Below the pieces are notes generated by a model that was not told where the DNA came from, did no database searches, and was given only the letters and a program-made list of their open reading frames with translations. DNA of 18,998 nucleotides, taken from the NCBI GenBank assembly GCA_030613505.1, contig JAUWLW010000048.1:1-18998 (forward strand). Reading direction: 5' to 3'. The stretch is from Candidatus Zixiibacteriota bacterium (GTDB lineage Bacteria > RBG-13-66-14 > B26-G2 > WVWN01). Below, in pieces: positions 4,966 to 18,998 of the stretch; the stretch's first letter is position 1, and each line of letters opens with the position of its first letter. Both the position numbers and the translations under genes were made by a program.

Positions 4966-5364
4966 CTACTTGAACAACGCCTTGATCCGCCCCACCGACG
5001 AGGGCACGACCGCAGGATGCGACCCGCGGAAGTACTGGATGCGGTGGTTATAAGGATCGGCAACGTGGACTCTGGTACCGTTCGGTAAAGGGGCGACGCC
5101 GAGGGGGTCAGAAAATTGGCCGTTACCCGAACCGGGCGTACCCCATTTTCCTAAAAAGGAACCGGTGGGGGTGAAGTATTGGACGCGGTCGTTATCCTGG
5201 TCGGCGACGTATACGTTACCATTGGGCGCCACCGCTACAAAGCCGGGTTTGTTAAATTGGCCGTTGCCCGTGCCTTCGCCGCCCCATTCCCCCTCGTACT
5301 CCCAGGCGCCCCGGGCCGCGGCCGCGACAGCCGCCGCCGTTGCGATAATTGACACCCTTTTCAT
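4966..5364 (-). CDS. Short exported NHL-repeat protein with conserved C-terminal tail
   Basis: The 132-residue product starts MKRVSIIATAAAVAAAARG, a probable Sec signal peptide. Two NHL-type blades follow: GNGQFNKPGFVAVAPNGNVYV-ADQDNDRVQYF near residues 32-64 and NGQFSDPLGVAPLPNGTRVHV-ADPYNHRIQYF near 81-112. The protein ends in SSVGRIKALFK. NHL propellers normally need about six blades (over 200 residues), so two blades cannot close a propeller alone. The protein is a shrunken copy, or it oligomerises. The start is well supported by AGGAGG at 5372-5377, seven bases before the ATG. That ribosome site overlaps the stop of an orphan tail just upstream, as if another exported gene had once preceded it in an operon. 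NHL domains usually mediate protein or ligand contacts; no specific partner is evident. Confidence 0.7.
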   Translation of the reverse strand: MKRVSIIATAAAVAAAARGAWEYEGEWGGEGTGNGQFNKPGFVAVAPNGNVYVADQDNDRVQYFTPTGSFLGKWGTPGSGNGQFSDPLGVAPLPNGTRVHVADPYNHRIQYFRGSHPAVVPSSVGRIKALFK

Positions 5365-6152: not shown

Positions 6153-9100
6153 CTACAGCGGCACACCCTCATAGCGGGGGCGTAACCCTTCGGCCCCCAC
6201 GAAAAACAAGCCGACCTCTTTCACGCGTCCGCCTGTCATCTCCTCCCACGCCCGGGCGTAGGCGCGCACTTGCGGCCCGTAGTAGGTGACGTACGGCGCG
6301 TAATCGCCGTCGGGGGGGGCGGAGGTCTTGTAATCGATTATAACCCAACCGTCGTCCTCCATAAAGGCGAGGTCTATAACGCCAGCGACGATGCCGGGCG
6401 AATGACCCGGTTGGCTTACCTTGCGGAAATAAGGAACCTCAGATAGAACCATCTTGGCGGCCCGGGCCCGCTGCCAGTGCGGCGTCCCCATAACTTCTTC
6501 CACCGCGGTTACAGCTTCGTCGGCTTTGCTCTGGTCCCTACCCTCGTTCCTTAATAACCACCGCGCCATTCGCAATAAATCGAGGTCTTGCCTGCGGATA
6601 GCCGCTTCTAATAGGCCGTGGATGACGTTGCCCCAGACGCGGTTACCCTCGGGCCATTCACCACCACGGTCCGCCGATGCCAGCGCCAGCTCCTTCTCGG
6701 CTGCCCGCTCGTAGCTCGCGCGTATTACGTTATTGCGCCGTTCGGCCAAAGCCTCGCGCGCAGCGGCGACTTCCTCGACCGTCACTGCGATAGGTTGGGC
6801 GGCCGGTAGTTCTTCTTCTCCCGGCGCTTCCAGGGGCTCGGCCTCGCCCAAATCCTTTTCGAAGTGGTACCACGGGCTTCTCTTATTGCGCCTTTCGGTG
6901 ACGACCATCATCGCGCCAGCGCGTGTCGCCGCGACATAACGTAGGCGCGCTTTCTCAGCCGCTTCGTACTTCCGCGCCTCTTCCTCCGCTTGTTCCCAAT
7001 CTGGCGGAACAGCGATTTCCTTTCCCTGCCGGGCGATTCCCTTTCTCGGTTCATCGTAGACGACGATATGGCCTCGCGGCATCTCGCCCCGTCGGTCTAT
7101 GTGGACTCTCGGCCCGCGGTCCGATTCTCCCGCGGGGTCCGCCAGAAAGACTACCGGTGCTTCAAGCCCCTTGGCTTGATGTAGGTTCATAACGCGCGCC
7201 AGTGTTCCCCCGACCGCAGCCTTCGCCGGTATCGCGTCTTGCCATAGCTCCTTATCATCAGTCGCTACGAGAGCTTCTAAGCCATCCGCGAGAGCCGCCG
7301 CCGACCACTCCTGGTCGTGAAGGCCGCGTAGCATTTCCAAAGCCTTAAGCAGGCCACCGGCCCGGCCGTTGCCGCCGACCGCCGCGGCCGCGTAGGCGAC
7401 GAGGCCGAGGTCTTCCAAGATACGCTCGACCGCCGCTACGGGAGGGAGGTTTTTTAACCAACGGTCGTATTCACGTAGGCGGTCGACCGCCTCCGCGATG
7501 ACGGCGCCTCCTTGCTCGGCACCTCGCGGGACCTTCTTTTTATAACTAAATCTACCGCCGCCCTTATTAAACTCGTAGAGCTCCTCGTCGCTCGCGCCCC
7601 AACCCTCGCCCCGTAAAAACCCGACGAGCTTTATCGGATCTTCCGGGTAAACTGCCGCCGCGAGCGCGCCTTTGAGGATCGAAAGCTCGGCGAGCGCATT
7701 CAGCGCATCGCTCCCGGTTACGGCGTGGGGTATCCGCCGGCGTTGAAACGCGTCGGCGTACGACGACAATCTTCGCTTCACCCGCGTTAGAACCATGAAA
7801 TCGCCGGGTTGAGCAGGCACCGCTTTCGGGTCGGCCTCTTTTCTAACGGGAAAGGGAATGGTGTAGCCTTTCGTTAGCGCGGCGGCGACGAAGGCCGAGA
7901 TCACGTCGGCGTCGTAAGCTGCGGATTCGTCTTGGTTACGGGCCACATCTTCCGGAAGCCGGATGGCATATAGACCCCTTAAATCCCCCTCGCCCGTATC
8001 GGTCCTACCCATCTCGAGCGGAACGTAAGCGGGCGCGTAGTCGTCCGCCTTTTCCGGGAATACTTCTCTGAAATGGTTGTTCACCCAGTCGACAAGTGGC
8101 TGGACAGCACGGAAGTTAGCGGTGAGCTGGACGAGCCGGCCGCCGCCTTTCAACATGATGCCCTTAACCTCGTTATAGGTTGCTACGTCGGCCCGGCGGA
8201 AACGGTAAATGGACTGCTTAGGATCGCCAACGACGAACAGGGAACCCGGCCTTGGACGGCACTTTCGCCAATCTTTTTCGCCCGCGTCGTTGGCCGCGAG
8301 CAACATCAAAACCTCGGCCTGTATCGGGTCGGTGTCCTGAAATTCGTCCACCAGCAAGTATTTGTACTTGCCGGCGAAGTATCCGCGTACGGCGCGGTGT
8401 TCCCGCAAGAGCGCCGCGGCTTTCATCAGAAGGTCCTGGAAGTTAAGGACGCCGAGCTCCCTGCGCCGCTCCGCGAACTCGGCGGCGACGACGCGATATA
8501 GTTTGATTACGAACTGATATCGGTATTTGAGAAGCTGCGTACGGAAAGGCCCGATGACGGCGGCATAGAAATCATTCCACCGCGCTTCCTCCTGTTTCGC
8601 GAGGAGGTTTTGTTGGCCTTTCTTTTCACCCCGCCAATACTTTTGCGTCAGTTTCACCGACGCGGGAACGTCTAATATCGCGTGGACGTCGCGCACGTCC
8701 GCCCAACCGATGTCGTAGACGAGGTCGCAGAACGCCTCCAACTCGTTCATAAGTTTGTCAGTGCCGCGCTCCTCAGGAGTCGGAAAAGAAGACCGTAAAG
8801 CGCCAATGTGCTTAGCGTACTCTCCGCATTCTTTACGGAAGGCCTCAAGATCCGGCGCCGCCATTTCGCGCTCACCCCAGTCCGTTATGTCGGGGTAGTT
8901 GGCGAAGGTAAGAAACCCATCTTTAAGGTCGTTCAATTTTACGCCGAGGGAACGAAGGGTCACGACCTCTGCGTCGTCCGCAGCGCGGAGGGCTTCCAGC
9001 ATCTCCCGCCAAACGTGCGCCGCGAGCAAGTGGTCGTCTCTTTCTTCTATCTCGGCAAACTCTAAATCCACGCCGGCCTCCACCGGCCGCTCGCGCAGGA

Positions 9101-9467
9101 GGCGCCCGCAGAACGAGTGGATAGTACCGACGAAGAGATGAGATATATCGTCTAGCGCCCGGCTGAACCGTTCACGGCGTACGCGTGCTCCGTCGTCGGG
9201 CGCTTCTTTTTTTACTTCCCTCTCCAATTCTAATTGGAGGCGCGCGCGCATCTCCGCCGCCGCCTTGTGGGTAAAAGTCACCGCGGCCATCTCCCGCGCG
9301 CCGCATTTCCCCGCTGCTAAAAGTTCTAACATGCGGTCGATAAGGCAAGTCGTCTTGCCGGTCCCAGCCGCCGCCTCCACGAGCATATTCCCGTCCAGCT
9401 CGCTGGTAATTTTGTCCCGTTCCCGCTGGTCCGGCGGTAAGGTATTATTTACTTTTCGTCTCGCCAT
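6153..9467 (-). CDS. addA: AddA-like helicase-nuclease (UvrD/RecB family) subunit
   Basis: The 1104-residue protein carries the full set of superfamily 1A helicase motifs. These are Walker A AAGTGKTT at 33-40, Walker B LLVDEFQD with D374 and E375, motif III VVGDPKQSIYRFR, motif V NLHQAKGLEAPVVFL, and motif VI LRYVAATRA. The C-terminus has a RecB-type nuclease domain: GVID (D1032), DYK (D1045, K1047) and QVRAY (Q1066, Y1070). With AddB it would resect DNA double-strand ends for RecA loading and also degrade linear foreign DNA. Its start overlaps the end of addB by 23 bases with GGGAG about 10 bases upstream, so the pair is translationally coupled and expressed from the addB promoter. Both nuclease and ATPase residues look intact. 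Length is close to known AddA proteins (about 1150-1250 residues). Confidence 0.9.
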   Translation of the reverse strand: MARRKVNNTLPPDQRERDKITSELDGNMLVEAAAGTGKTTCLIDRMLELLAAGKCGAREMAAVTFTHKAAAEMRARLQLELEREVKKEAPDDGARVRRERFSRALDDISHLFVGTIHSFCGRLLRERPVEAGVDLEFAEIEERDDHLLAAHVWREMLEALRAADDAEVVTLRSLGVKLNDLKDGFLTFANYPDITDWGEREMAAPDLEAFRKECGEYAKHIGALRSSFPTPEERGTDKLMNELEAFCDLVYDIGWADVRDVHAILDVPASVKLTQKYWRGEKKGQQNLLAKQEEARWNDFYAAVIGPFRTQLLKYRYQFVIKLYRVVAAEFAERRRELGVLNFQDLLMKAAALLREHRAVRGYFAGKYKYLLVDEFQDTDPIQAEVLMLLAANDAGEKDWRKCRPRPGSLFVVGDPKQSIYRFRRADVATYNEVKGIMLKGGGRLVQLTANFRAVQPLVDWVNNHFREVFPEKADDYAPAYVPLEMGRTDTGEGDLRGLYAIRLPEDVARNQDESAAYDADVISAFVAAALTKGYTIPFPVRKEADPKAVPAQPGDFMVLTRVKRRLSSYADAFQRRRIPHAVTGSDALNALAELSILKGALAAAVYPEDPIKLVGFLRGEGWGASDEELYEFNKGGGRFSYKKKVPRGAEQGGAVIAEAVDRLREYDRWLKNLPPVAAVERILEDLGLVAYAAAAVGGNGRAGGLLKALEMLRGLHDQEWSAAALADGLEALVATDDKELWQDAIPAKAAVGGTLARVMNLHQAKGLEAPVVFLADPAGESDRGPRVHIDRRGEMPRGHIVVYDEPRKGIARQGKEIAVPPDWEQAEEEARKYEAAEKARLRYVAATRAGAMMVVTERRNKRSPWYHFEKDLGEAEPLEAPGEEELPAAQPIAVTVEEVAAAREALAERRNNVIRASYERAAEKELALASADRGGEWPEGNRVWGNVIHGLLEAAIRRQDLDLLRMARWLLRNEGRDQSKADEAVTAVEEVMGTPHWQRARAAKMVLSEVPYFRKVSQPGHSPGIVAGVIDLAFMEDDGWVIIDYKTSAPPDGDYAPYVTYYGPQVRAYARAWEEMTGGRVKEVGLFFVGAEGLRPRYEGVPL

Positions 9468-12400
9468 TGGGCCGCAACTCCCTGAAATCGTTAAGTGCTT
9501 CGTTCTCCGGGTTGTCCAACTTGGCGCGCGCGAACGCCGGTTCGTCGGCGCAGATCGGCGCGTAGTCGCAATACTTACAGTCGCCGACGTCGTCGGTAGC
9601 GGCGTAGGTACCCGCGCCGGCGACGCCGCAGAGCGCCGCTATGATTCCCTGTCCCATTTCCATCAACTCATCGCGCCGATACCGTATCCGCCGCCCCCTA
9701 CCTTTCGCGCTGGTAAAGAAATAACCGAACGACTCCACGGCGACGTCCCCCCTTCCCTGCGCCGCGAGCGCCGCCTCCAGGAGGGCGATGTAATAGAAAT
9801 TCTGGATTACTCGGCCATTGAAGAACGGCGGTTCTTTTTCAAACCGCCAAGCGCTCCCGGACTTATAATCCCATATCGCGAGTGACTTGTCGGCCTCTTC
9901 GTCTACGCGATCCAACCGGCCGCGACCACGAATGCGCGCGCCGTTAGGCAACGCGATGTCCACCGGTTCGGCCGTGTCAAAAGGCGTACCGGCCCCCTTC
10001 GGTTCCATCCCGAACGTAACTTCGCAATGTTGCGGCGTACTTGTTTCGCAGTGGACCTCTTCATTAAGCAGGAAATAACGACAGGCCTTTTCGAGTTGGT
10101 CAACCTGTTCTTCGAAAACAGTTTCGCGGGCTGGCGGATACATCTTCCGGTACTCGCCTATCTTTTGGTTTAAAATCGCGAAAAGACACTCTTCATCTCT
10201 CTTCGCCTGGGGCCGTGTTCCTTCACGCACCAAAGCCGTCATGAACTCGTAAAACACGTCGTGAAGCAGAGACCCTGCAGCGCGGGCGTCTAACCAAGTA
10301 TCCTCGTCCACCGCGTAATCCTCGGGGAGTTCTAGGCCGAGGACGTATTTAAAGAAGAAACGGCGAGGGCAGGCGCCTATCGTCTCAAGTCGGTGAGAGG
10401 AATACGGCGGCGCGTCGTCGGCCGTGAACGCTAGACCGGCTTCCGGGACAGAACCGTCGTAAGCGGTGAAGGCGTCGCTCTTCCGCGCGGCGCACGCGGC
10501 CATACCGCGGACGAGATTCTCATAATGGCCGGCAACGACGGCCCGGTTGTCGGCCCCCGCATCCTCAGACAAAAGCCGCCACAACCACCACTCGCTTAAA
10601 TCCAAAGCTTTATCCTCAGCGTCGGGGCAGAACGAAGCCGGCGGTCCGAGCCAACGTTTCATTGCCTCTAAGTCCCCCGCGCGTTCTCCCGAAAGTAAGC
10701 GGTACGCCTTAACCACAACGGCGGACGGAAAGGATTCGCGGTCATCCGCTAAGTCGTAACAGCTATAACTCAGCGTAACGTGGCCGCGCAGACGCGCAAG
10801 GAGGCGGGCGAATTCACCCTCTCGCTCATCCAACCGCCGCTCTCCCGTAGGAAGGTCGGCCGATAACTTGGCCCGTTCGCCGTCCAATAAAACAGGTTCC
10901 GGGAGCCCCGCACCCGGGAAACGACCATCATCCAGGCCTAGAATGAAAGTATACGGCCGGTCAGAATGACCTCCGGCGTAAAGGTTAGACACGTACAAGT
11001 GCCCCGGGCGCGGGCCCGCACCCCCCACGGGCGTCTCTGCGGGGAGGCTTTTCAGCCATTCCCAACCGTTCACGTACGATAGCGCTTGCTCTCCCTCGGC
11101 CCATCCTATCAACTCGTTTATGGCATCCATCAACGCGCGACCCGCGTACTCGTCAAACCGTCCGGTCAGCTCGCGCTTGAACTTTTCCAGGAAAGTCTTA
11201 CCGGCGGCGAGAACGTCGACTAAAGGCGCGTCAACGTCGGGCGTTAGCGTAATAAGATCTCTTACCCGATCCCGCAATACGCCGACCGCCGTGCGGCGCC
11301 TTTCGAAGTAAGACGTATCCAACGGCTCGCCATCCTCATCCACCAACTTCTCCTTACGTTCTACAAGGGCGTCTAAACCGGTAATTACGGCGTCAAGCTG
11401 CGTCAGGTAGCGTTCGCGACCCGCTCCTACGCCAGCGCGTCTGAGCTCGTCAGCCAGAAAACTAAAACTGAACTCGGTTTCGTCGCCGACGGCGAGAAGC
11501 CCATCCTGGATCATACGGACGAGCGTCTGCTGTGGGAAGTTCTCGCTGGACCATTCCACCCAAGCGCGAAGGGCTCGGCCCGGACGGGAATAGGAAGCCG
11601 GAACGCCGTCGGCGAAAGTGACGGGGAGGCCGAATTCGCTTCCGTCGCTCTCGCTCGCGGCGGATTCATCTTCCGCGTCATCCGTAGCGAATAGACGTGC
11701 TGCTACTTCATAAATAAGTCGGCGGTAAACGTCGGCGTCGGCGTAGATTATCTCTACGCTATCGAACGGCGTCCCCTCGGCCAATATACGGCGGAAAACC
11801 TCGCGGACCTCGTTCGTCTCGCCAACGGCCGCAAAAATCGACGCGGTTTTGTCCCCCCGAGGCGGTGGCGCAACGGCCGGGTTCTTTAACCAGCGCAGTA
11901 ACGCAAGGTCCGTATAGCTCTCTGGCCAGGCAATGTCGCTCGCGACCGGTTCGTCCACCGCCAGCTCTCGCAATTGGCCTACCGGCAACGCGGCCAAGAG
12001 ATCGCGTTCCATTTTGTGCCGGGCGACATATTTAGGATAAATAACAAGGGCATCCGGGGGTACGGGCGAAGGGCTTTCATTAAGCCGGTTGATGGCGAGG
12101 GCTAATACGCCGGCGTAGTCTAAGAGATTCTTCTCGCGGAGGACAGCGGCGTAAGAGCGCAACAACTCGCGGATAGCCGCGCCCTTTATTCTGATCTCCA
12201 ATTTCTCCGGGTCGACGTCGTCGGCACTCAAGCCGGCGAGGCGGAGATCCATCATTGTACGGGCGAGCGCTGTAAAGAAACCCGGTGACGTCTCGACACG
12301 CGCGAAATACTGGCGGCTTTCTGCGTCGAGCCTCGCCCAAGCTATCTCCGTAGCGACCTCGACGCCGAGGCCCGAAATGAATTCCGCACCTTCCTTCGCC

Positions 12401-12681
12401 ATCGCGTCGCGCGCGCAATAACGTGCGAGGTTGACGAGGGTGTCGTGCCGCTCGTCCAGGATGTATTCCAGCTCCCGGTCTTCGGGTAAATCGACACCCT
12501 CCGCGTCATCTGCCGACCGCCCCGGGAGATACCCGAGGCGGACGTTGACGACCGGGTGCCCCTCCCGCGCTACCGCCTCGAGCCACTGCCGGGCGACGCG
12601 CCGCGACGGCGCTACAATCCACTTCTCCTCGAAGAGGTATTCGCGAAAAATATTTGCGAGTTCCTGCGTGAAAACGTTCAT
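9445..12681 (-). CDS. addB: AddB-like nuclease subunit with Fe-S cluster motif, no Walker A
   Basis: The 1078-residue protein has the AddB C-terminal arrangement. GACPRRFFFKYVLGLELPED carries C771, then GRLDRVDEE and IWDYKSG (D938, K940) form the PD-(D/E)XK nuclease site, followed by Q and Y in IQNFYYI. The final CKYCDYAPIC carries C1035, C1038 and C1044. The C-x(263)-C-x2-C-x5-C spacing fits the 4Fe-4S nuclease domain of AddB. The N-terminus reads EEKWIVAPSRRVARQWLEAV, where many AddB proteins have a GxGSGKT loop, so the degenerate helicase domain here seems unable to bind ATP. In B. subtilis the AddB helicase core is also not the motor. The gene heads a leftward operon with addA. A GGAAGG ribosome site lies 4 bases before the ATG. 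The upstream region contains an inverted repeat shared with the AAA+ gene. Confidence 0.86.
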   Translation of the reverse strand: MNVFTQELANIFREYLFEEKWIVAPSRRVARQWLEAVAREGHPVVNVRLGYLPGRSADDAEGVDLPEDRELEYILDERHDTLVNLARYCARDAMAKEGAEFISGLGVEVATEIAWARLDAESRQYFARVETSPGFFTALARTMMDLRLAGLSADDVDPEKLEIRIKGAAIRELLRSYAAVLREKNLLDYAGVLALAINRLNESPSPVPPDALVIYPKYVARHKMERDLLAALPVGQLRELAVDEPVASDIAWPESYTDLALLRWLKNPAVAPPPRGDKTASIFAAVGETNEVREVFRRILAEGTPFDSVEIIYADADVYRRLIYEVAARLFATDDAEDESAASESDGSEFGLPVTFADGVPASYSRPGRALRAWVEWSSENFPQQTLVRMIQDGLLAVGDETEFSFSFLADELRRAGVGAGRERYLTQLDAVITGLDALVERKEKLVDEDGEPLDTSYFERRRTAVGVLRDRVRDLITLTPDVDAPLVDVLAAGKTFLEKFKRELTGRFDEYAGRALMDAINELIGWAEGEQALSYVNGWEWLKSLPAETPVGGAGPRPGHLYVSNLYAGGHSDRPYTFILGLDDGRFPGAGLPEPVLLDGERAKLSADLPTGERRLDEREGEFARLLARLRGHVTLSYSCYDLADDRESFPSAVVVKAYRLLSGERAGDLEAMKRWLGPPASFCPDAEDKALDLSEWWLWRLLSEDAGADNRAVVAGHYENLVRGMAACAARKSDAFTAYDGSVPEAGLAFTADDAPPYSSHRLETIGACPRRFFFKYVLGLELPEDYAVDEDTWLDARAAGSLLHDVFYEFMTALVREGTRPQAKRDEECLFAILNQKIGEYRKMYPPARETVFEEQVDQLEKACRYFLLNEEVHCETSTPQHCEVTFGMEPKGAGTPFDTAEPVDIALPNGARIRGRGRLDRVDEEADKSLAIWDYKSGSAWRFEKEPPFFNGRVIQNFYYIALLEAALAAQGRGDVAVESFGYFFTSAKGRGRRIRYRRDELMEMGQGIIAALCGVAGAGTYAATDDVGDCKYCDYAPICADEPAFARAKLDNPENEALNDFRELRPNGETKSK

Positions 12682-12776: not shown

Positions 12777-12786
12777 ATTATATAAT
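12777..12786. promoter_or_regulatory. Palindromic -10 element shared by divergent addB and WYL promoters
   Basis: The ten bases ATTATATAAT are their own reverse complement. They give a perfect TATAAT on the plus strand (12781-12786, toward the WYL gene) and on the minus strand (12782-12777, toward addB). Neither direction has a good -35 box: TTCAAG is the best 17-base spaced match on the plus strand, and ACCGTG on the minus strand. The predicted starts are near 12793 (plus) and 12770 (minus). Confidence 0.6.
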
Positions 12787-12792
12787 GCGGGT

Positions 12793-12811
12793 AGTGACGC
12801 ACGGTGTCACT
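12793..12811. promoter_or_regulatory. Inverted-repeat operator, site 1 (addB/WYL intergenic)
   Basis: GTGACG-CACGG-TGTCAC (12794-12810) is an imperfect 6-5-6 inverted repeat, extended by an A/T pair on the flanks. On the plus strand it covers the predicted start of the WYL transcript. On the minus strand it occupies the -35 position of the addB promoter, ending 11 bases before that -10 box. The same 17-bp pattern recurs at 13925-13941 and 15740-15756. Confidence 0.6.
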
Positions 12812-12887
12812 GCTTACGAATTAAAGCCTCGGCCAGCAGTAGATCCCGATTTTATAGTCATCTTAGCTGAAAGGCTGGGTAAAATAA

Positions 12888-13889
12888 ATGGTTAAGAGAC
12901 GAACACTTGCGACGCGCGGCCCTCACGAACGAATAATCGAAATTGACCGACGTATCCGCCGTAACCAATACCCTTCGGTCTCGCGCCTTGCTCAGGCACT
13001 CGGTGTCACACAACGTACCGTATACCGGGATCTCGATTACATGCGCAACGTCATGGGTTACCCGATCAAATTCTCAAAAAAAAATCGCGGTTATTATTAC
13101 GAGGGTTCGGCCCCAACTCTCGGCTCAGTAGTATTAAACGAGGGCGAACTTTTCGCTCTCTTCGTCGGGCGGAAAGTGCTTGCCCAATACCGCGGAACGC
13201 CCTACGAAAACGCGCTCCGCTCGGCCTTCGAGAAAATACGCGCCGCGCTCACAGATGACGTCGAGTTGTACCTAGACGAATGGGAACGGAAGCTCTCGTT
13301 CGACGTAGGCGGCGTCATGGATGTTGACCCGGAGATATTTGCGAAACTCCAGGAAGCCGTCGATTGCGGTTTTCGGATAAGGATGTTCTACTACACTGCC
13401 TACCGGGACGAAAGAACCTGGAGAGAAATCGACCCCTACTTCCTCTTCAATATCGACGGCGAGTGGTACTTGGTAGGATTCTGTCACCTTAGAAAACAAC
13501 TGCGTACGTTCATGCCCGGCCGCATCGAGGAGATCGAACTCACGGACAAGGTCTTCAAACCTCCCGCCGAACTCACACTTACGGACTTCTTGCGTGACGC
13601 GTTCCGGGTCGAGGTGAGAGTAGGACAAGTTCCCCAAAACGTGCGCGTTCGGTTCTCGCCTGAGCAAGCGCGCTATATACGCGAGCGCCGTTGGCACTCG
13701 AGCCAGGCGATAGAAGAGCAACCCGACGGTTCGGTTATACTAAACCTCACCGTCGTAGGGGAAAAAGAACTTATCCGATGGGTCTTGAGGTACGGCGCCG
13801 ACGCGGAAATACTCGAACCGGCGGCGCTCCGTGATAAAGTAAAGGAGATCACTGGACGTATGGTGAGTATTTACTCCGGCGAATCTTAA
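12888..13889 (+). CDS. HTH-WYL transcriptional regulator (PafB/PafC/DriD type)
   Basis: The 333-residue protein has an N-terminal winged HTH at about residues 12-73 (the SVSRLAQALGVTQRTVYRDLDYM recognition region, then a wing ending RGYYYEG). A central WYL domain follows, with the eponymous GEWYLVGF (W193-Y194-L195) and the basic RKQLRTFMPGRI segment that in this family lines a nucleic-acid ligand pocket. The C-terminal part from about 235 on resembles the WCX extension. WYL regulators such as mycobacterial PafBC and Caulobacter DriD sense DNA damage, DriD through single-stranded DNA; BrxR and CapW control phage-defence operons. Its position divergent from addB, with an inverted repeat between them, makes control of addBA likely. 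The ribosome site is weak (AAGG, 13 bases upstream), so expression is probably low. No upstream in-frame start fits better. Confidence 0.9.
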   Translation: MVKRRTLATRGPHERIIEIDRRIRRNQYPSVSRLAQALGVTQRTVYRDLDYMRNVMGYPIKFSKKNRGYYYEGSAPTLGSVVLNEGELFALFVGRKVLAQYRGTPYENALRSAFEKIRAALTDDVELYLDEWERKLSFDVGGVMDVDPEIFAKLQEAVDCGFRIRMFYYTAYRDERTWREIDPYFLFNIDGEWYLVGFCHLRKQLRTFMPGRIEEIELTDKVFKPPAELTLTDFLRDAFRVEVRVGQVPQNVRVRFSPEQARYIRERRWHSSQAIEEQPDGSVILNLTVVGEKELIRWVLRYGADAEILEPAALRDKVKEITGRMVSIYSGES

Positions 13890-13922
13890 AATCCAGGCAT
13901 CGACCGTTTCAACTTTTCCCTG

Positions 13923-13951
13923 CGGTGACACTTTTTGTCACCGTTTTTTTT
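13923..13951 (+). terminator. Intrinsic terminator of the WYL gene, also operator-like site 2
   Basis: A perfect 8-bp stem CGGTGACA (13923-13930) / TGTCACCG (13936-13943) with loop CTTTT is followed by eight Ts (13944-13951). It lies 33 bases after the WYL stop and is a textbook rho-independent terminator. Its inner part, GTGACA-N5-TGTCAC (13925-13941), is also the best copy of the repeat found upstream of addB and of the AAA+ gene, so the element may double as a binding site. TTAATA stands 11 bases after it, but this is a poor -10 box. Confidence 0.85.
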
Positions 13952-13996
13952 GTTAATAGGATATGTATGAGAGTGCTTCGAAAAAATGAAGAGTAA

Positions 13997-14077
13997 GGGC
14001 TGGCGGCCGAGTGGTTAAAGGTACCAGACTGTAAATCTGGTCCTTCGGGTTCGGTGGTTCAAATCCATCCCCACCCA
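13997..14077 (+). tRNA. tRNA-Tyr(GTA)-like gene with a damaged acceptor stem
   Basis: The 81-base sequence folds as a class II tRNA. It has a D arm GCC...GGT, anticodon stem CCAGA/TCTGG with loop CTGTAAA (anticodon GTA at 14031-14033), a 12-base variable arm with a CC-TTC-GG mini stem, and T arm GGTGG-TTCAAAT-CCATC. The 3' strand is CCCACCC followed by A73, with no encoded CCA. The 5' acceptor strand GGGCTGG mispairs at two adjacent positions (C4-A69 and T5-C68), and position 8 is C where T is almost universal. It may be a decaying or divergent tRNA-Tyr. The rest is well conserved. Confidence 0.75.
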
Positions 14078-14125
14078 GGTGAGATTTAAATGAATTTCGT
14101 TAAGTATAAATGAGGAGATGATATT

Positions 14126-14590
14126 ATGAGGGTTTCGCCTGGTGAGCTTTTAGTGCTTTTATTAGCAACGTTTTTAATTCTCTGTGTCTTTACCGTTGCC
14201 TCCGTCCAGAGTGGAGAATACCCTTGGAAGGTAAGTGATGAGTATCTCTTCTCTGGCGATAAATACAATACAGTTGTAGGGTTTCATACGCTCTACGTCC
14301 ATATCCTAACTTACTATCCCAGCAAACACGATATTACAATCTATAAACAGGAAAAGTTCCACGACCTTTTCTTTGAAGTAGTTATGGATGCGATTCCTGA
14401 AATGGAATGCGGAGAGAACGACAAGATTATAGTATACCGTGCATTTTGGGTCGGAAACGATGGAGACGTACTCTGCCAATGGGGATTTTATGAGAGTCTG
14501 GATTGTGAAGAGTATAAAAAAGATGAGAAGGTATTCGATACCTATTTCTATTTTCCAAGTTGTTGCTTAGGAGACCAATCAGTAAACTGA
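14126..14590 (+). CDS. Putative exported protein of unknown function, AT-rich
   Basis: This 154-residue protein starts MRVSPGELLVLLLATFLILCVFTVASVQS, a charged start and long hydrophobic run, so it is either a signal peptide or an N-terminal membrane anchor (a lipobox is not convincing). The mature part is rich in aromatic and acidic residues and has five further cysteines, in MECGEN, VLCQW, DCEEY and FPSCCLG. This suggests an oxidised extracytoplasmic domain. A good AGGAG site (14113-14117) lies 8 bases before the ATG. Codons end in A/T far more often than in addA or the WYL gene, pointing to recent transfer. It begins 48 bases after the tRNA-like gene. I recognise no family. Confidence 0.62.
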   Translation: MRVSPGELLVLLLATFLILCVFTVASVQSGEYPWKVSDEYLFSGDKYNTVVGFHTLYVHILTYYPSKHDITIYKQEKFHDLFFEVVMDAIPEMECGENDKIIVYRAFWVGNDGDVLCQWGFYESLDCEEYKKDEKVFDTYFYFPSCCLGDQSVN

Positions 14591-14602
14591 AAAATAGTCG
14601 GT

Positions 14603-14815
14603 ATGAAAAAGTACAAATTCGAATTCGGAGACTTGGTGGTTATAGAGAAGATAATTGTTGAGCCAACAGACTTGGAGACGCTTATTGGACGCCTACAAAG
14701 GAATTTCGTAGGAGAGACTTGCAAAGTAGTGGGTATACGGCACTTCCCAAAAAGAACCCCTTATCTGCTAATGGCTCATCGTGAGCCTGGATCCAAAAAA
14801 GAACCGCCCGGGTAA
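14603..14815 (+). CDS. Small hypothetical protein (70 aa), AT-rich
   Basis: The product reads MKKYKFEFGDLVVIEKIIVE, then PTDLETLIGRLQRNFVGETC and a basic, proline-containing end. The opening FEFGDLVVIE resembles the start of small SH3-like or KOW-like barrels, but this is only an impression. It starts 12 bases after the previous gene, in the same A/T-rich codon style, so the two probably form one transferred unit. The ribosome site is weak. No function is proposed. Confidence 0.42.
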   Translation: MKKYKFEFGDLVVIEKIIVEPTDLETLIGRLQRNFVGETCKVVGIRHFPKRTPYLLMAHREPGSKKEPPG

Positions 14816-14835
14816 AGGCATGCGCCAACTCTTCA

Positions 14836-14855
14836 CCCGACGGAAATAAGTCGGG
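14836..14855 (+). terminator. Hairpin after the AT-rich pair, possible weak terminator
   Basis: CCCGAC (14836-14841) pairs with GTCGGG (14850-14855) across an 8-base loop GGAAATAA. No T-run follows, so it may be only an RNA hairpin between the small gene and the sigma factor gene. Confidence 0.3.
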
Positions 14856-14918
14856 CGCCCCTGTTCCGTCCCGTAATCGCTTATCCTTTCTAAACTAACA
14901 AGCACCCCAGACCGAAGT

Positions 14919-15683
14919 ATGGCGACCGTCGGCAAACCCTTTAAAACGAGATACAGGAAGTCGAGTAGGTTACCCATGAACGAAATAGAAAGAGAAGCAG
15001 ACGCAACGCAAGACGACACCGCGGATGTCGCTAGCGAATTTACCTGCCCGGACTCGGATACTCCGCCTTTATCCCTGAACTTAAAAACGATCTACTTCCA
15101 GGAGGTGGCCAGGTCGCCAAGGCTTTCGAGAAGAGAAGAACGAGCGATAACCGAACTAGCTGCGGCCGGCGGCGAAGGAGCTGCGGCCGCACTCGCCACG
15201 TCGTACTTGAGAATGGTCATTAAGTTTGCTTCCACATACGCTCGCCGCTTCCCGTATCCCGGTACGGTGTACCTCGACTTAATCCAAGAAGGCAACGTTG
15301 CACTACTATTAGCCGCTCGGCGTTTCTCGCCGAATTACGGTGCCCCCTTTTACTCGTACGCCCGCGTAGCCGTGGAACGGGCTATCCGGCGTGCGCTCGG
15401 GAAGAATTTTAAAAGGTTTTCCGACCTACCGATAGAGGAAACTCTACCAGGAAAGGGGTGTGCGGAAACTGACGTACTGGCTTGCGCAACCGTCCAAAAA
15501 ATTTTACGCACGTTGAGTCCGCAAGAACGTAAGGTCATCGAACTCCGCTTCGGCTTACTCAACGGCGAACGCCACACGTTACGGGAAGTCGCGTCTATAG
15601 TCGGTATTACCCGCCACAATGTACGTCAGATCGAGAAAACGGCAATGACGGCGATGCGCAACATAGTAGACAAAATCGGGTAG
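14919..15683 (+). CDS. Small sigma-70 family sigma factor with region 3 nearly missing
   Basis: The 254-residue protein has a region 1.2-like segment (LKTIYFQEVARSPRLSRREE, about 56-75) and region 2 at about 95-160 (YLRMVIKFASTYARR, YLDLIQEGNVALL, then FYSYARVAVERAIRRAL). A linker of about 30 residues follows, then region 4 at about 193-250 with SPQERKVIELRFGL and the HTH LREVASIVGITRHNVRQIEK. Housekeeping sigma has a region 3 of roughly 75 residues and the WWIRQAI tryptophans of region 2.3; here that place reads RVAVERAI. This is therefore an alternative sigma with changed -10 recognition or melting. The start is uncertain: ATG at 14919 has no clear ribosome site, and the in-frame ATG at 14976 (235 residues) has only AGGAAG 15 bases away. 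Its neighbours, the WYL regulator and AAA+ gene, suggest a dedicated regulator. Confidence 0.85.
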   Translation: MATVGKPFKTRYRKSSRLPMNEIEREADATQDDTADVASEFTCPDSDTPPLSLNLKTIYFQEVARSPRLSRREERAITELAAAGGEGAAAALATSYLRMVIKFASTYARRFPYPGTVYLDLIQEGNVALLLAARRFSPNYGAPFYSYARVAVERAIRRALGKNFKRFSDLPIEETLPGKGCAETDVLACATVQKILRTLSPQERKVIELRFGLLNGERHTLREVASIVGITRHNVRQIEKTAMTAMRNIVDKIG

Positions 15684-15739
15684 GTAACACGCGCTGATTC
15701 TTTATCAAAAGCCCCTAAAAACCTATTTTTACCGCAACA

Positions 15740-15773
15740 ATGACAGCATTTGTCACCCCGCTCCCGATATACT
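15740..15773 (+). promoter_or_regulatory. Operator site 3 and promoter of the AAA+ gene
   Basis: ATGACA-GCATT-TGTCAC (15740-15756) matches GTGACA-N5-TGTCAC with one change. After exactly 11 bases comes TATACT (15768-15773), a good -10 box. No -35 consensus stands at the right distance, so the repeat occupies the -35 region. The predicted start near 15780 leaves a 23-base leader containing AAGGAG. The same repeat-to--10 distance is seen for addB. Confidence 0.6.
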
Positions 15774-15802: not shown

Positions 15803-17137
15803 ATGCCGAAAAAGAGTAACCCCATTAAATATGGCCGCGACGACACCCTGCTAGAGGAATGGCTTAACTTCGTGGGCTACCTCACTGAGGGGCCTCGTAC
15901 TAAAACATTACGGCCCCAAAAAACGCGAACGGGAAAGGAAAGTCGCAAGGAGGGGCTCTCCCGCCTTTGGCCCAAAACCTGCGTGGATAACCTCGACGAA
16001 TGTAAAACGGGCCTCCAGGTTTTCGTGCGTATGCACCAGCTTTCCCCCGAGGAGACGCTCATAGTAGCCACGTTATTGCTGGAACAGTTGGCCATAAACG
16101 CGGGTTTGCGCCGCGAAATAATAATGACACCCCTATTAAAGGACAAAGGGGAGGCAGCGGGTCTCCTTCATTTCTCGGAACTAATGGGCCCTAACAGCCA
16201 TTTGGTTGAGAGGAAGATAATCGCCCGCTCGGGGATGTTCGGCGAAGACATCCTACTCACGTCGCGTGCCGTTTCCACGCTGCTGGGGAAGAAGTTTAAT
16301 CGCCCGCGCCGCCAACGGCCCGAATGGGCCCGTCGCGGAAGAGAAGCAAAAAGGGAGTTGGTCGAAAGCATCGAACCGCGGGTAAAATTAGATGATGTTG
16401 TCTTGCCAGAAAAAACGAGGGAAGAAATCGAAGACGCGTTATTCTACGTTAAGCAACGTCACCGAATATTAAAAGACTCTGGGCTCGGTGGCGTAATCGA
16501 GAAAGGCACCGGTCTGGCCGTTTTGTTCTACGGTCCCCCCGGAACAGGAAAGACTATGGCCGCGGAAGCTTTCGCGGGTGCCCTCGGGAAGCAAGCTAGC
16601 ATAGTGCGAACCGAATCGGTGGTGGATTGTTACTTCGGTGAGACCGAGAAAAATATTAGCCGGTTGTTCTCGCACGCCAAGAAAAAAGACCTCGTCATCA
16701 TCTTCGACGAATGCGACAGCCTTTTCTTTAATCGCCCGCGTGGTGGCCGCTACCAAGACGCCGTGGTGTCCCGTGAAGTAAATACCCTACTACGCGGTAT
16801 CGAAGAAGGTGAGGGGGTCTACATATTGACGAGCAACAGAGCGGATTTCCTTGACCCGGCTCTCGACCGTCGCCTCGCCTTTAAAATATTCTTCGCGCCG
16901 CCGGACCTGGAATGCCGGTTAGCGCTGTGGTCACGGTTGCTACCGAAGAACCACAAACTCGACGATACCGATCTACGCGAACTCACGGCCCGATACCCCG
17001 TAACCGGGGGCGTCATTAAACAAGTGGCCCTCGCGGTCGCACGACGGTCGGCCCGAAAGGGTTCAAACGTGACGATGAACGACGTTTTAATCGCTTTGAA
17101 CCAGTTTAAATCAGAGGAGAAGAGGATAGGTTTTTAA
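15803..17137 (+). CDS. AAA+ ATPase with unrecognised N-terminal domain
   Basis: The start is set at 15803 (444 residues) because AAGGAG (15786-15791) lies 11 bases before it. The in-frame ATG at 15740 falls inside the operator and upstream of the predicted transcript start. The first roughly 190 residues match no domain I know; they include a helical region SPEETLIVATLLLEQLAI and MGPNSHLVERKIIARSGMF. Such N-terminal parts often recruit substrates. The AAA+ module follows: LFYGPPGTGKT with K250, Walker B IIFDECDS (D302, E303), sensor 1 ILTSNR, arginine-finger-like DPALDRRL, and a C-terminal lid ending LNQFKSEEKRIGF. It is closest in style to CDC48/FtsH-like single-ring remodellers, but no protease domain is present. 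It is read in the same direction as the sigma gene, 119 bases downstream, yet has its own promoter and operator. Confidence 0.85.
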   Translation: MPKKSNPIKYGRDDTLLEEWLNFVGYLTEGPRTKTLRPQKTRTGKESRKEGLSRLWPKTCVDNLDECKTGLQVFVRMHQLSPEETLIVATLLLEQLAINAGLRREIIMTPLLKDKGEAAGLLHFSELMGPNSHLVERKIIARSGMFGEDILLTSRAVSTLLGKKFNRPRRQRPEWARRGREAKRELVESIEPRVKLDDVVLPEKTREEIEDALFYVKQRHRILKDSGLGGVIEKGTGLAVLFYGPPGTGKTMAAEAFAGALGKQASIVRTESVVDCYFGETEKNISRLFSHAKKKDLVIIFDECDSLFFNRPRGGRYQDAVVSREVNTLLRGIEEGEGVYILTSNRADFLDPALDRRLAFKIFFAPPDLECRLALWSRLLPKNHKLDDTDLRELTARYPVTGGVIKQVALAVARRSARKGSNVTMNDVLIALNQFKSEEKRIGF

Positions 17138-17429: not shown

Positions 17430-18788
17430 ATGGCCGATATTTTCAAATGGCTTGACGCTTACACCCCAACGCAAAAGAGGAACCCTAGAGAAGACCGCCT
17501 TACCGCGTCATTGGGCTATTTATTGAGTGCCTCCGCTCGATTTAAAAGGGCATTCTTTAAATGGGTTTTCAGCAATGAAATAAAGGAACGAAGATTAACT
17601 TGGAAAATATTGCGGAATGCGGAAGTTGAAATGCATCCAGAATATTCCCTTAATATTCCCCAAAAAGATAAAAAGCGAGCTGTACCCGACTTATTGATAC
17701 ACGCAGGGGAAAATGCCGGTTTCGTGCTTTTTATTGAAAGTAAATGGGGCGCCGACGCTGAATTATTACAAATAGAAAAATATAAAAATATATTAGAAAA
17801 TGATTTCGCGAAAGTTCAGACAAGGAAGCTCGTTTTACTATGCCGCGATCGCCCAACGAAGATGCTTCAGGAGATAGAAAATATATGTGATATAAAAACG
17901 TGGGACGAATTATTCGATAATGTAGTGTATCCCCAAAAAACAGATACTCAAGTAGAACCTTTCTTCGAGTTCGCGCAGGAGGATTTAAACATGGGTTCCT
18001 TTACGGGTATACCGGCATTCAGCCCCGACGATAATCCCTTTGCACTAGAAAAAGCTAAACGTTTACTCGAAAGAATAATCGAGTCTAAAGAAATCCAAAA
18101 CTGGATGAAAAAAAGTGAGCTTCGAATTGTTAAAAAGCCCTCCGCTAGGCAAGGAGGAAATTACGCGTGGGTACCGATTGGACCAAAAAACAACGATACA
18201 AGGAAATTTTATAAGTACCCACAATTAACGTTATCTCTAGAAGAGACCGCATTCGAAATAAGCGTGATCTTACCTTACGGCGTGCGTTCCGTTTTTCGGA
18301 AAAATTTGTTGGATAGCCTTAAGGAAAACGCAGGTAAAAATTTCTATATAAAACTTTGGGAATGCCGGTCAAATCTGGGTCCCATAGCGGAATATTGGAT
18401 AAAAATCCTGCAACGCCACGCCTACGCCGGTCAAACCTTAGTAGAAGATGCAAAAAGCGAGTACAAGATAGATGTTTTAGGATCATTGCTACCTGAGGAA
18501 GCGAAGAGTTTCGAAAGCGATTCCTTTAAAAGATCCGATTTCTCCAAGAACGCTTTATTAGAAGCCCTCATGCTCATCATTGAAAAAGAAGTTAACATCG
18601 AAATCGATTTCGCGGCGCGCTACTACGTAAACGATAAATGCCCTGCGGCAAAGAATCGCCAAAAAAAAGCACAGCAGAAAGGGCGAAAATCAGCATATCC
18701 GGACATCCACGACCGTTCGTTTATCAAAGAGGTTGAGCGGGCTCTAGATATCCAATTGCGCGTTTACCGTACTATTCTAAGTCCTTAA
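17430..18788 (+). CDS. PD-(D/E)XK nuclease-superfamily protein, AT-rich, unknown role
   Basis: The 452-residue protein opens MADIFKWLDAYTPTQKRNPREDRLTASLGYLL; the NPREDRLT start is typical of PD-(D/E)XK proteins found in defence islands. The catalytic set follows: PDLLI with D87, then FIESKWG with E103 and K105. The region after about residue 190 (CxLW-containing, with ERIIESKEIQNWM and a YYVNDKCPAAKNRQKKAQQKG basic stretch near the end) is not recognised and may bind DNA or a partner. A GGAGG site (17419-17423) lies 6 bases before the ATG, so the start is firm. Codon choice is clearly more A/T-ending than in the AAA+ gene upstream, and it has its own promoter, so it may have arrived separately. 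It could be a restriction-like effector; this is inference. Confidence 0.75.
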   Translation: MADIFKWLDAYTPTQKRNPREDRLTASLGYLLSASARFKRAFFKWVFSNEIKERRLTWKILRNAEVEMHPEYSLNIPQKDKKRAVPDLLIHAGENAGFVLFIESKWGADAELLQIEKYKNILENDFAKVQTRKLVLLCRDRPTKMLQEIENICDIKTWDELFDNVVYPQKTDTQVEPFFEFAQEDLNMGSFTGIPAFSPDDNPFALEKAKRLLERIIESKEIQNWMKKSELRIVKKPSARQGGNYAWVPIGPKNNDTRKFYKYPQLTLSLEETAFEISVILPYGVRSVFRKNLLDSLKENAGKNFYIKLWECRSNLGPIAEYWIKILQRHAYAGQTLVEDAKSEYKIDVLGSLLPEEAKSFESDSFKRSDFSKNALLEALMLIIEKEVNIEIDFAARYYVNDKCPAAKNRQKKAQQKGRKSAYPDIHDRSFIKEVERALDIQLRVYRTILSP

Positions 18789-18998
18789 TAACTCCAAGAC
18801 GCGGGCCACGTATTAGGTTTCGAGGCGCACTTATCATACTGTTATCTGAGTAATCTCCTGCTCGAGCAGACGGTCGTCCTATACAACCCTTCCCCGAGCC
18901 GTACTCCCTAAATAAAATAAGACGTCCGCTATTCGTGCGCCCGAGGAGCTTCACGTATCCATACCGTTACCGAAAAACGCCATTTCCGAGTCGAAGGA
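18789..18998. other. Right edge, no supported gene
   Basis: I see no credible coding frame, terminator with a T-run or repeat here. A short minus-strand frame (18954-18772) starting at a GTG lacks a ribosome site and overlaps the end of the nuclease gene. Confidence 0.4.

Follow-up and report, generated by a model that had tools for sequence, protein, structure and literature searches.

The DNA around a WYL regulator gene in this Candidatus Zixiibacteriota genome contains two palindromic sites, S1 and S3, that lie at the same distance from predicted -10 elements. With slightly better than even confidence, these are promoter-proximal sites of the neighboring WYL protein, which would be a DriD/PafBC-like DNA-damage activator of addB-addA and of an AAA+ ATPase gene. 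S1 is a GTGAC-N7-GTCAC dyad (12794-12810, minus strand, center 12802) and is the proposed WYL site overlapping the addB-addA -35 region. S3 is an ATGAC-N7-GTCAC dyad (15740-15756, plus strand, center 15748) and is the corresponding proposed WYL site over the AAA+ -35 region. Positions refer to the analyzed window of 18,998 nucleotides, which is the whole of contig 64. The genome that was searched comprises 2.86 Mb in 100 contigs.

An earlier note on this DNA described three copies of a 6-5-6 inverted repeat, GTGACA-N5-TGTCAC, at S1, S3, and a third site, S2 (13925-13941). Re-reading of the sequences confirmed all three positions. They are the sole matches in the window at zero or one mismatch; the note had found no further copy by eye. 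The claim that all three are non-coding holds provided that 15803, which follows an AGGAG ribosome-binding site, is the AAA+ start. The same open reading frame (ORF) can also be read from the ATG inside S3 (15740), but this is an unlikely alternative start. A literature search for the literal motif found no paper.

Genome-wide, the exact pattern RTGACR-N5-TGTCAY matches at S1, S2, and S3 and nowhere else in the 2.86 Mb. Allowing one mismatch adds approximately 17 sites, nearly all within ORFs. The 6-5-6 repeat is present at all three sites, but the natural unit is RTGAC-N7-GTCAY, which is a better form for S1 and S3 than GTGACA-N5-TGTCAC; rewritten in this way, S1 and S2 are perfect dyads. This unit occurs at 8 sites in the genome. 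Three of the 8 are in this 3-kb stretch and the other five are inside ORFs; we estimate a probability of ~6e-5 that three of 8 randomly placed sites would lie in one 3-kb stretch. Judged as a hit of a blind search for repeats, the triple stands out only moderately. Some triple over spacers of 0-15 appears in 2% of the shuffles made from the 808 nt of non-coding sequence, and one comparable triple was found in 400 kb of the same genome. The significance of the sites rests on promoter geometry; the repeats would not be sufficient by themselves.

The promoter geometry is shared by S1 and S3. In the direction of addB (minus strand), the S1 sequence is GTGACACCGTGCGTCAC-TACCCGCATTA-TATAAT, where the hexamer (12777-12782, minus strand) is the -10 of the proposed addB-addA promoter with a predicted transcription start at about 12770. 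In the direction of the AAA+ gene (plus strand), the S3 sequence is ATGACAGCATTTGTCAC-CCCGCTCCCGA-TATACT. This hexamer (15768-15773, plus strand) is the sole good -10 before the AAA+ gene, and the predicted start is at about 15780. Common to both is GTCAC-N11-TATAAT/TATACT, with 11 nt between GTCAC and the -10. The distance from the dyad center to the first base of the -10 hexamer is 20 bp in each case, i.e., the dyads are centered at -32. Both promoters have poor -35 elements, with best matches of at most 2/6 over a spacing range of 15-19 nt. When the flanks were dinucleotide-shuffled, 0.6% of trials gave S1 and S3 a common distance anywhere up to 40 bp, and 0.06% gave them a common distance within 18-21 bp.

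The composite pattern TGAC-N7-GTCA-N12-TAnnnT has exactly two matches in the genome, at S1 and S3, although the pattern was written after both had been seen and its uniqueness is partly circular. Genome-wide, the composite is found at no other DNA-repair gene; most of its one-mismatch matches fall in coding sequence, and none is in front of a recognizable DNA-repair gene. A genome-wide regulon was considered and rejected, since the one-mismatch sites are nearly all in ORFs and none precedes a recognizable DNA-repair gene.

S2 is a textbook intrinsic terminator of the WYL gene. The element (13922-13951, plus strand) reads GCGGTGACA-CTTTT-TGTCACCGT followed by a T run, and the stem, CGGTGACA-CTTTT-TGTCACCG followed by T8, contains the GTGACA-N5-TGTCAC repeat. 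In a terminator scan, this G+C-containing hairpin has a 9-bp stem, a loop of 5, and T8, and lies 35 nt past the WYL stop codon. The folding energy is -13.7 kcal/mol (z -6.5). The earlier picture of three equivalent operators was therefore not borne out: S2 as a third operator equal to S1 and S3 is rejected as the primary reading, and only S1 and S3 have the promoter layout. The half-site match in S2 may be due to chance or may be a second use of the terminator. S1 folds well and S3 poorly; neither is a terminator because neither has a T run behind it.

A weak promoter-like match, TTGTCA-N16-TAGGAT (9/12), overlaps S2 ahead of a tRNA-Tyr gene (GTA anticodon, 13997-14077). This is the sole tRNA-Tyr found in the assembly. 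It is ~74% identical to the tRNA-Tyr of congeners, where the gene is within a Thr-Tyr-Gly cluster. Possibly it is an additional gene of foreign origin, and the native tRNA-Tyr was lost at an assembly gap.

The WYL regulator (12888-13889, plus strand) is a protein of 333 amino acids with an N-terminal HTH_11 domain followed by WYL and WCX domains (PF08279, PF13280, and PF25583, all above curated cut-offs). No other WYL gene was found in the genome. A profile built from the protein and its relatives matches PafBC at 1e-37 and DriD at 1.5e-28. The same profile is far weaker against the repressors BrxR (2.8e-11) and CapW (3.1e-9), and on these profile scores the protein is assigned to the PafBC/DriD class, not to BrxR/CapW. 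PafB requires the residues R181, Y196, R204, and R208 for single-stranded DNA (ssDNA) binding (PMC11804915). All four are conserved here, where R179, Y194, R202, and R206 align with them.

The earlier note had also joined addB-addA, the WYL gene, and the AAA+ gene into one regulon around the three repeats. What is supported of this is the link that S1 and S3 make between addB-addA and the AAA+ gene, through genome-wide exclusivity, identical and correctly oriented spacing, and a fitting class of regulator. What does not stand is the part played by S2, a terminator and not evidently an operator.

No WYL orthologue above 37% identity was found in the collections of relatives, genome contigs, and viral contigs that were searched. 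The nearest named relatives are plasmid-borne, CRISPR-associated regulators of cyanobacteria (36-37% identity), several of which are beside cas6/cas3. In contrast to these, the locus here has no cas gene, and the DNA upstream of theirs lacks the motif. The motif is likewise absent upstream of the closest of the distant WYL homologues (26-37% identical), and 5-bp spacers are not enriched at the loci of these distant homologues. A 7-5-7 palindrome in two Flavobacteriia loci was considered as a conserved site and rejected, as it is conserved coding sequence.

DriD is an HTH-WYL-WCX protein, as is the regulator here. The DriD consensus is ATACGAC-N7-GTCGTAT, with conserved guanines contacted in each half-site (PMC12340889). 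DriD sites cover a poor -35, which falls at their center, and keep a fixed distance to the -10 (PMC12340889). S1 and S3 have the GAC-N7-GTC core in the same register and are likewise centered over a poor -35, with a constant distance to the -10. The outer half-site differs, with RT before GAC at S1 and S3 and ATAC in DriD. In Caulobacter crescentus, DriD is an activator in an SOS-independent DNA damage response and controls the scattered genes didA, bapE, recJ, and dnaG, whereas the sites here are at one locus only. We know of no DriD control of addAB.

PafBC is a mycobacterial activator that responds to ssDNA and is the best-scoring solved relative of the WYL protein; the conserved ssDNA-binding residues are a further likeness. 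Its promoter motif is tTGTCRgtg-8nt-TannnT (PMC5656591). Both systems combine TGTCR with TannnT, but the match is incomplete: at S3 (TTGTCA-N12-TATACT) the spacing is 1 bp longer and gtg is missing, and S1 lacks the T before GTC. PafBC also differs in being a heterodimer of PafB and PafC (one solved form is a fusion) that has a non-palindromic motif and controls a broad regulon, whereas the locus here has a single HTH-WYL-WCX subunit and a palindrome. BrxR Arg38 contacts G:C and T:A at ±6/±7 of a 5-bp-spaced palindrome (PMC9122589), and these are the G and T positions of the sites here. The agreements with DriD, PafBC, and BrxR carry weight because they were found after the motif had been fixed. 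What the layout suggests is a DriD/PafBC-like activator at the -35, and not simply an unspecified operator.

According to the preferred activator reading, a WYL dimer would read GAC in each half of RTGAC-N7-GTCAY, centered at -32 over the poor -35. The bound dimer would help RNA polymerase to start at the weak promoters of addB-addA (TATAAT, S1) and of the AAA+ gene (TATACT, S3). The signal would most likely be ssDNA that arises from DNA damage or phage attack and binds to the WYL domain. S1 is also just downstream of the likely start point of the WYL gene and could act as a brake on that gene. AddAB starts double-strand-break repair and degrades phage DNA, and this end-processing machine itself handles ssDNA. 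Against this reading speaks the lack of the composite element at any other DNA-repair gene of the genome, unlike the broader DriD and PafBC regulons. The differences from DriD in the outer half-site and from PafBC in spacing, and the absence of the motif upstream of distant WYL homologues, also count against it.

Most of the better-known WYL proteins of defense islands (BrxR, CapW, and Sll7009) are repressors, and a BrxR/CapW-type autorepressor is the main rival, though an unlikely one. A WYL dimer on S1, at its own start, and on S3, before the AAA+ gene, would block both until released by a ligand, and addB-addA may be a bystander. Relative to a perfect TATAAT on the plus strand (12781-12786), the -10 of a possible WYL promoter with a start at about 12793, S1 occupies +2 to +18, much as R-BOX1 is directly downstream of PbrxR (PMC9122601). 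BrxR palindromes have 5-bp spacers, and one is at brxR and one before the defense genes (PMC9122601). A palindrome near the regulator's own promoter together with a defense-type gene is a feature of BrxR and CapW (PMC9122601, PMC9122589, PMC9122588), and the AAA+ protein of this locus is closest to the anti-phage ATPase IetA. The class of the WYL protein, PafBC/DriD rather than BrxR/CapW, argues against the repressor, which also leaves unexplained the identical 20-bp spacing to the addB and AAA+ -10s and the poor -35s. The sequence relation to BrxR and CapW is weaker, BrxR arms are longer (10-11 bp), and there is no addAB link in these systems.

Less probable still is coincidence, in which S2 has no role beyond termination and the palindromes at S1 and S3 arose by chance beside AT-rich sequence that resembles a -10. 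The textbook terminator at S2, the yield of triples from blind searches (2% of shuffles and one in 400 kb of genome), and the choice of the pattern after the data had been seen are all in its favor; it is opposed by the genome-wide exclusivity of the sites, the same-distance test (0.06-0.6%), and the agreement with the DriD/PafBC layout that was found afterwards. Very improbable is a regulator other than the WYL protein, for example one encoded elsewhere in the genome or one that works with the sigma factor (14919-15683). Palindromes alone name no protein, and a sigma-70-family gene is located between S2 and S3. However, sigma factors do not read palindromes, the sites have WYL-type geometry and lie on either side of the genome's sole identified WYL gene, and the lack of sites elsewhere is what a local regulator would show.

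The activator reading can be extended to a local, SOS-independent switch, an idea that is possible but tentative. An ssDNA-sensing WYL homodimer would directly activate AddAB and the IetA-like AAA+ protein from two geometrically identical promoters, with S1 braking the regulator gene. If true, this switch would couple broken-end processing to a defense-type ATPase. The activator reading itself, if true, would link the PafBC/DriD class directly to AddAB. It would also supply RTGAC-N7-GTCAY-N11-TAnnnT as a specific site of a WYL regulator that is distant from those of Caulobacter and mycobacteria, and would suggest that GAC-N7-GTC at a fixed spacing to the -10 is a grammar common to the class.

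The genes on either side of the regulator are named from domain matches. The addB-like gene (9445-12681, minus strand) encodes a PD-(D/E)XK nuclease (PF12705, 3.4e-26; TIGR02773 addB, 1.1e-11). The addA-like gene (6153-9467, minus strand) encodes a UvrD helicase and nuclease (PF00580, 1.1e-54; TIGR02784 addA, 1e-71). Both the addA and addB names rest on matches below the curated equivalog cut-offs. The AAA+ ATPase (15803-17137, plus strand) matches PF00004 (1e-23), PADLOC IetA (1.2e-37), and NCBIfam IteA (6e-36, below cut-off), and resembles IetA in the C-terminal ATPase part only. No IetS-type protease gene was recognized on the contig, which ends at 18998. Close relatives of addB and of the AAA+ N-terminus were searched for and none were found.

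The sigma-70-family factor at 14919-15683 is short, contains regions 2 and 4, and is encoded between the tRNA and the AAA+ gene. It has weak matches to MzaA of the MZA defense system and to phage sigma factors. Downstream of the AAA+ gene, 17430-18788 encodes a 452-amino-acid protein that belongs to no known family and weakly matches the defense candidate PDC-S26. An ExK-like motif (VPDLLIHAGENAGFVLFIESKWG) suggests that this protein is perhaps a PD-(D/E)XK nuclease; its predicted structure has a pLDDT of 40 and is unusable.

The segment 12700-18998 has a G+C content of 0.40-0.54, compared with 0.57-0.69 in the left part of the contig, and its genes are without close relatives in the genus. 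It is possibly an acquired island. A misbinned contig was considered and rejected, as tldD, also on this contig, shares 71% identity with that of a congener and at least the left part is therefore native. Elsewhere on the contig, a secreted-looking protein (4966-5364, minus strand) and one in a congener (L099, 885-1643) have near-identical tails, SSVGRIKALFK and ASLGRVKALFR, perhaps a lineage-specific sorting signal.
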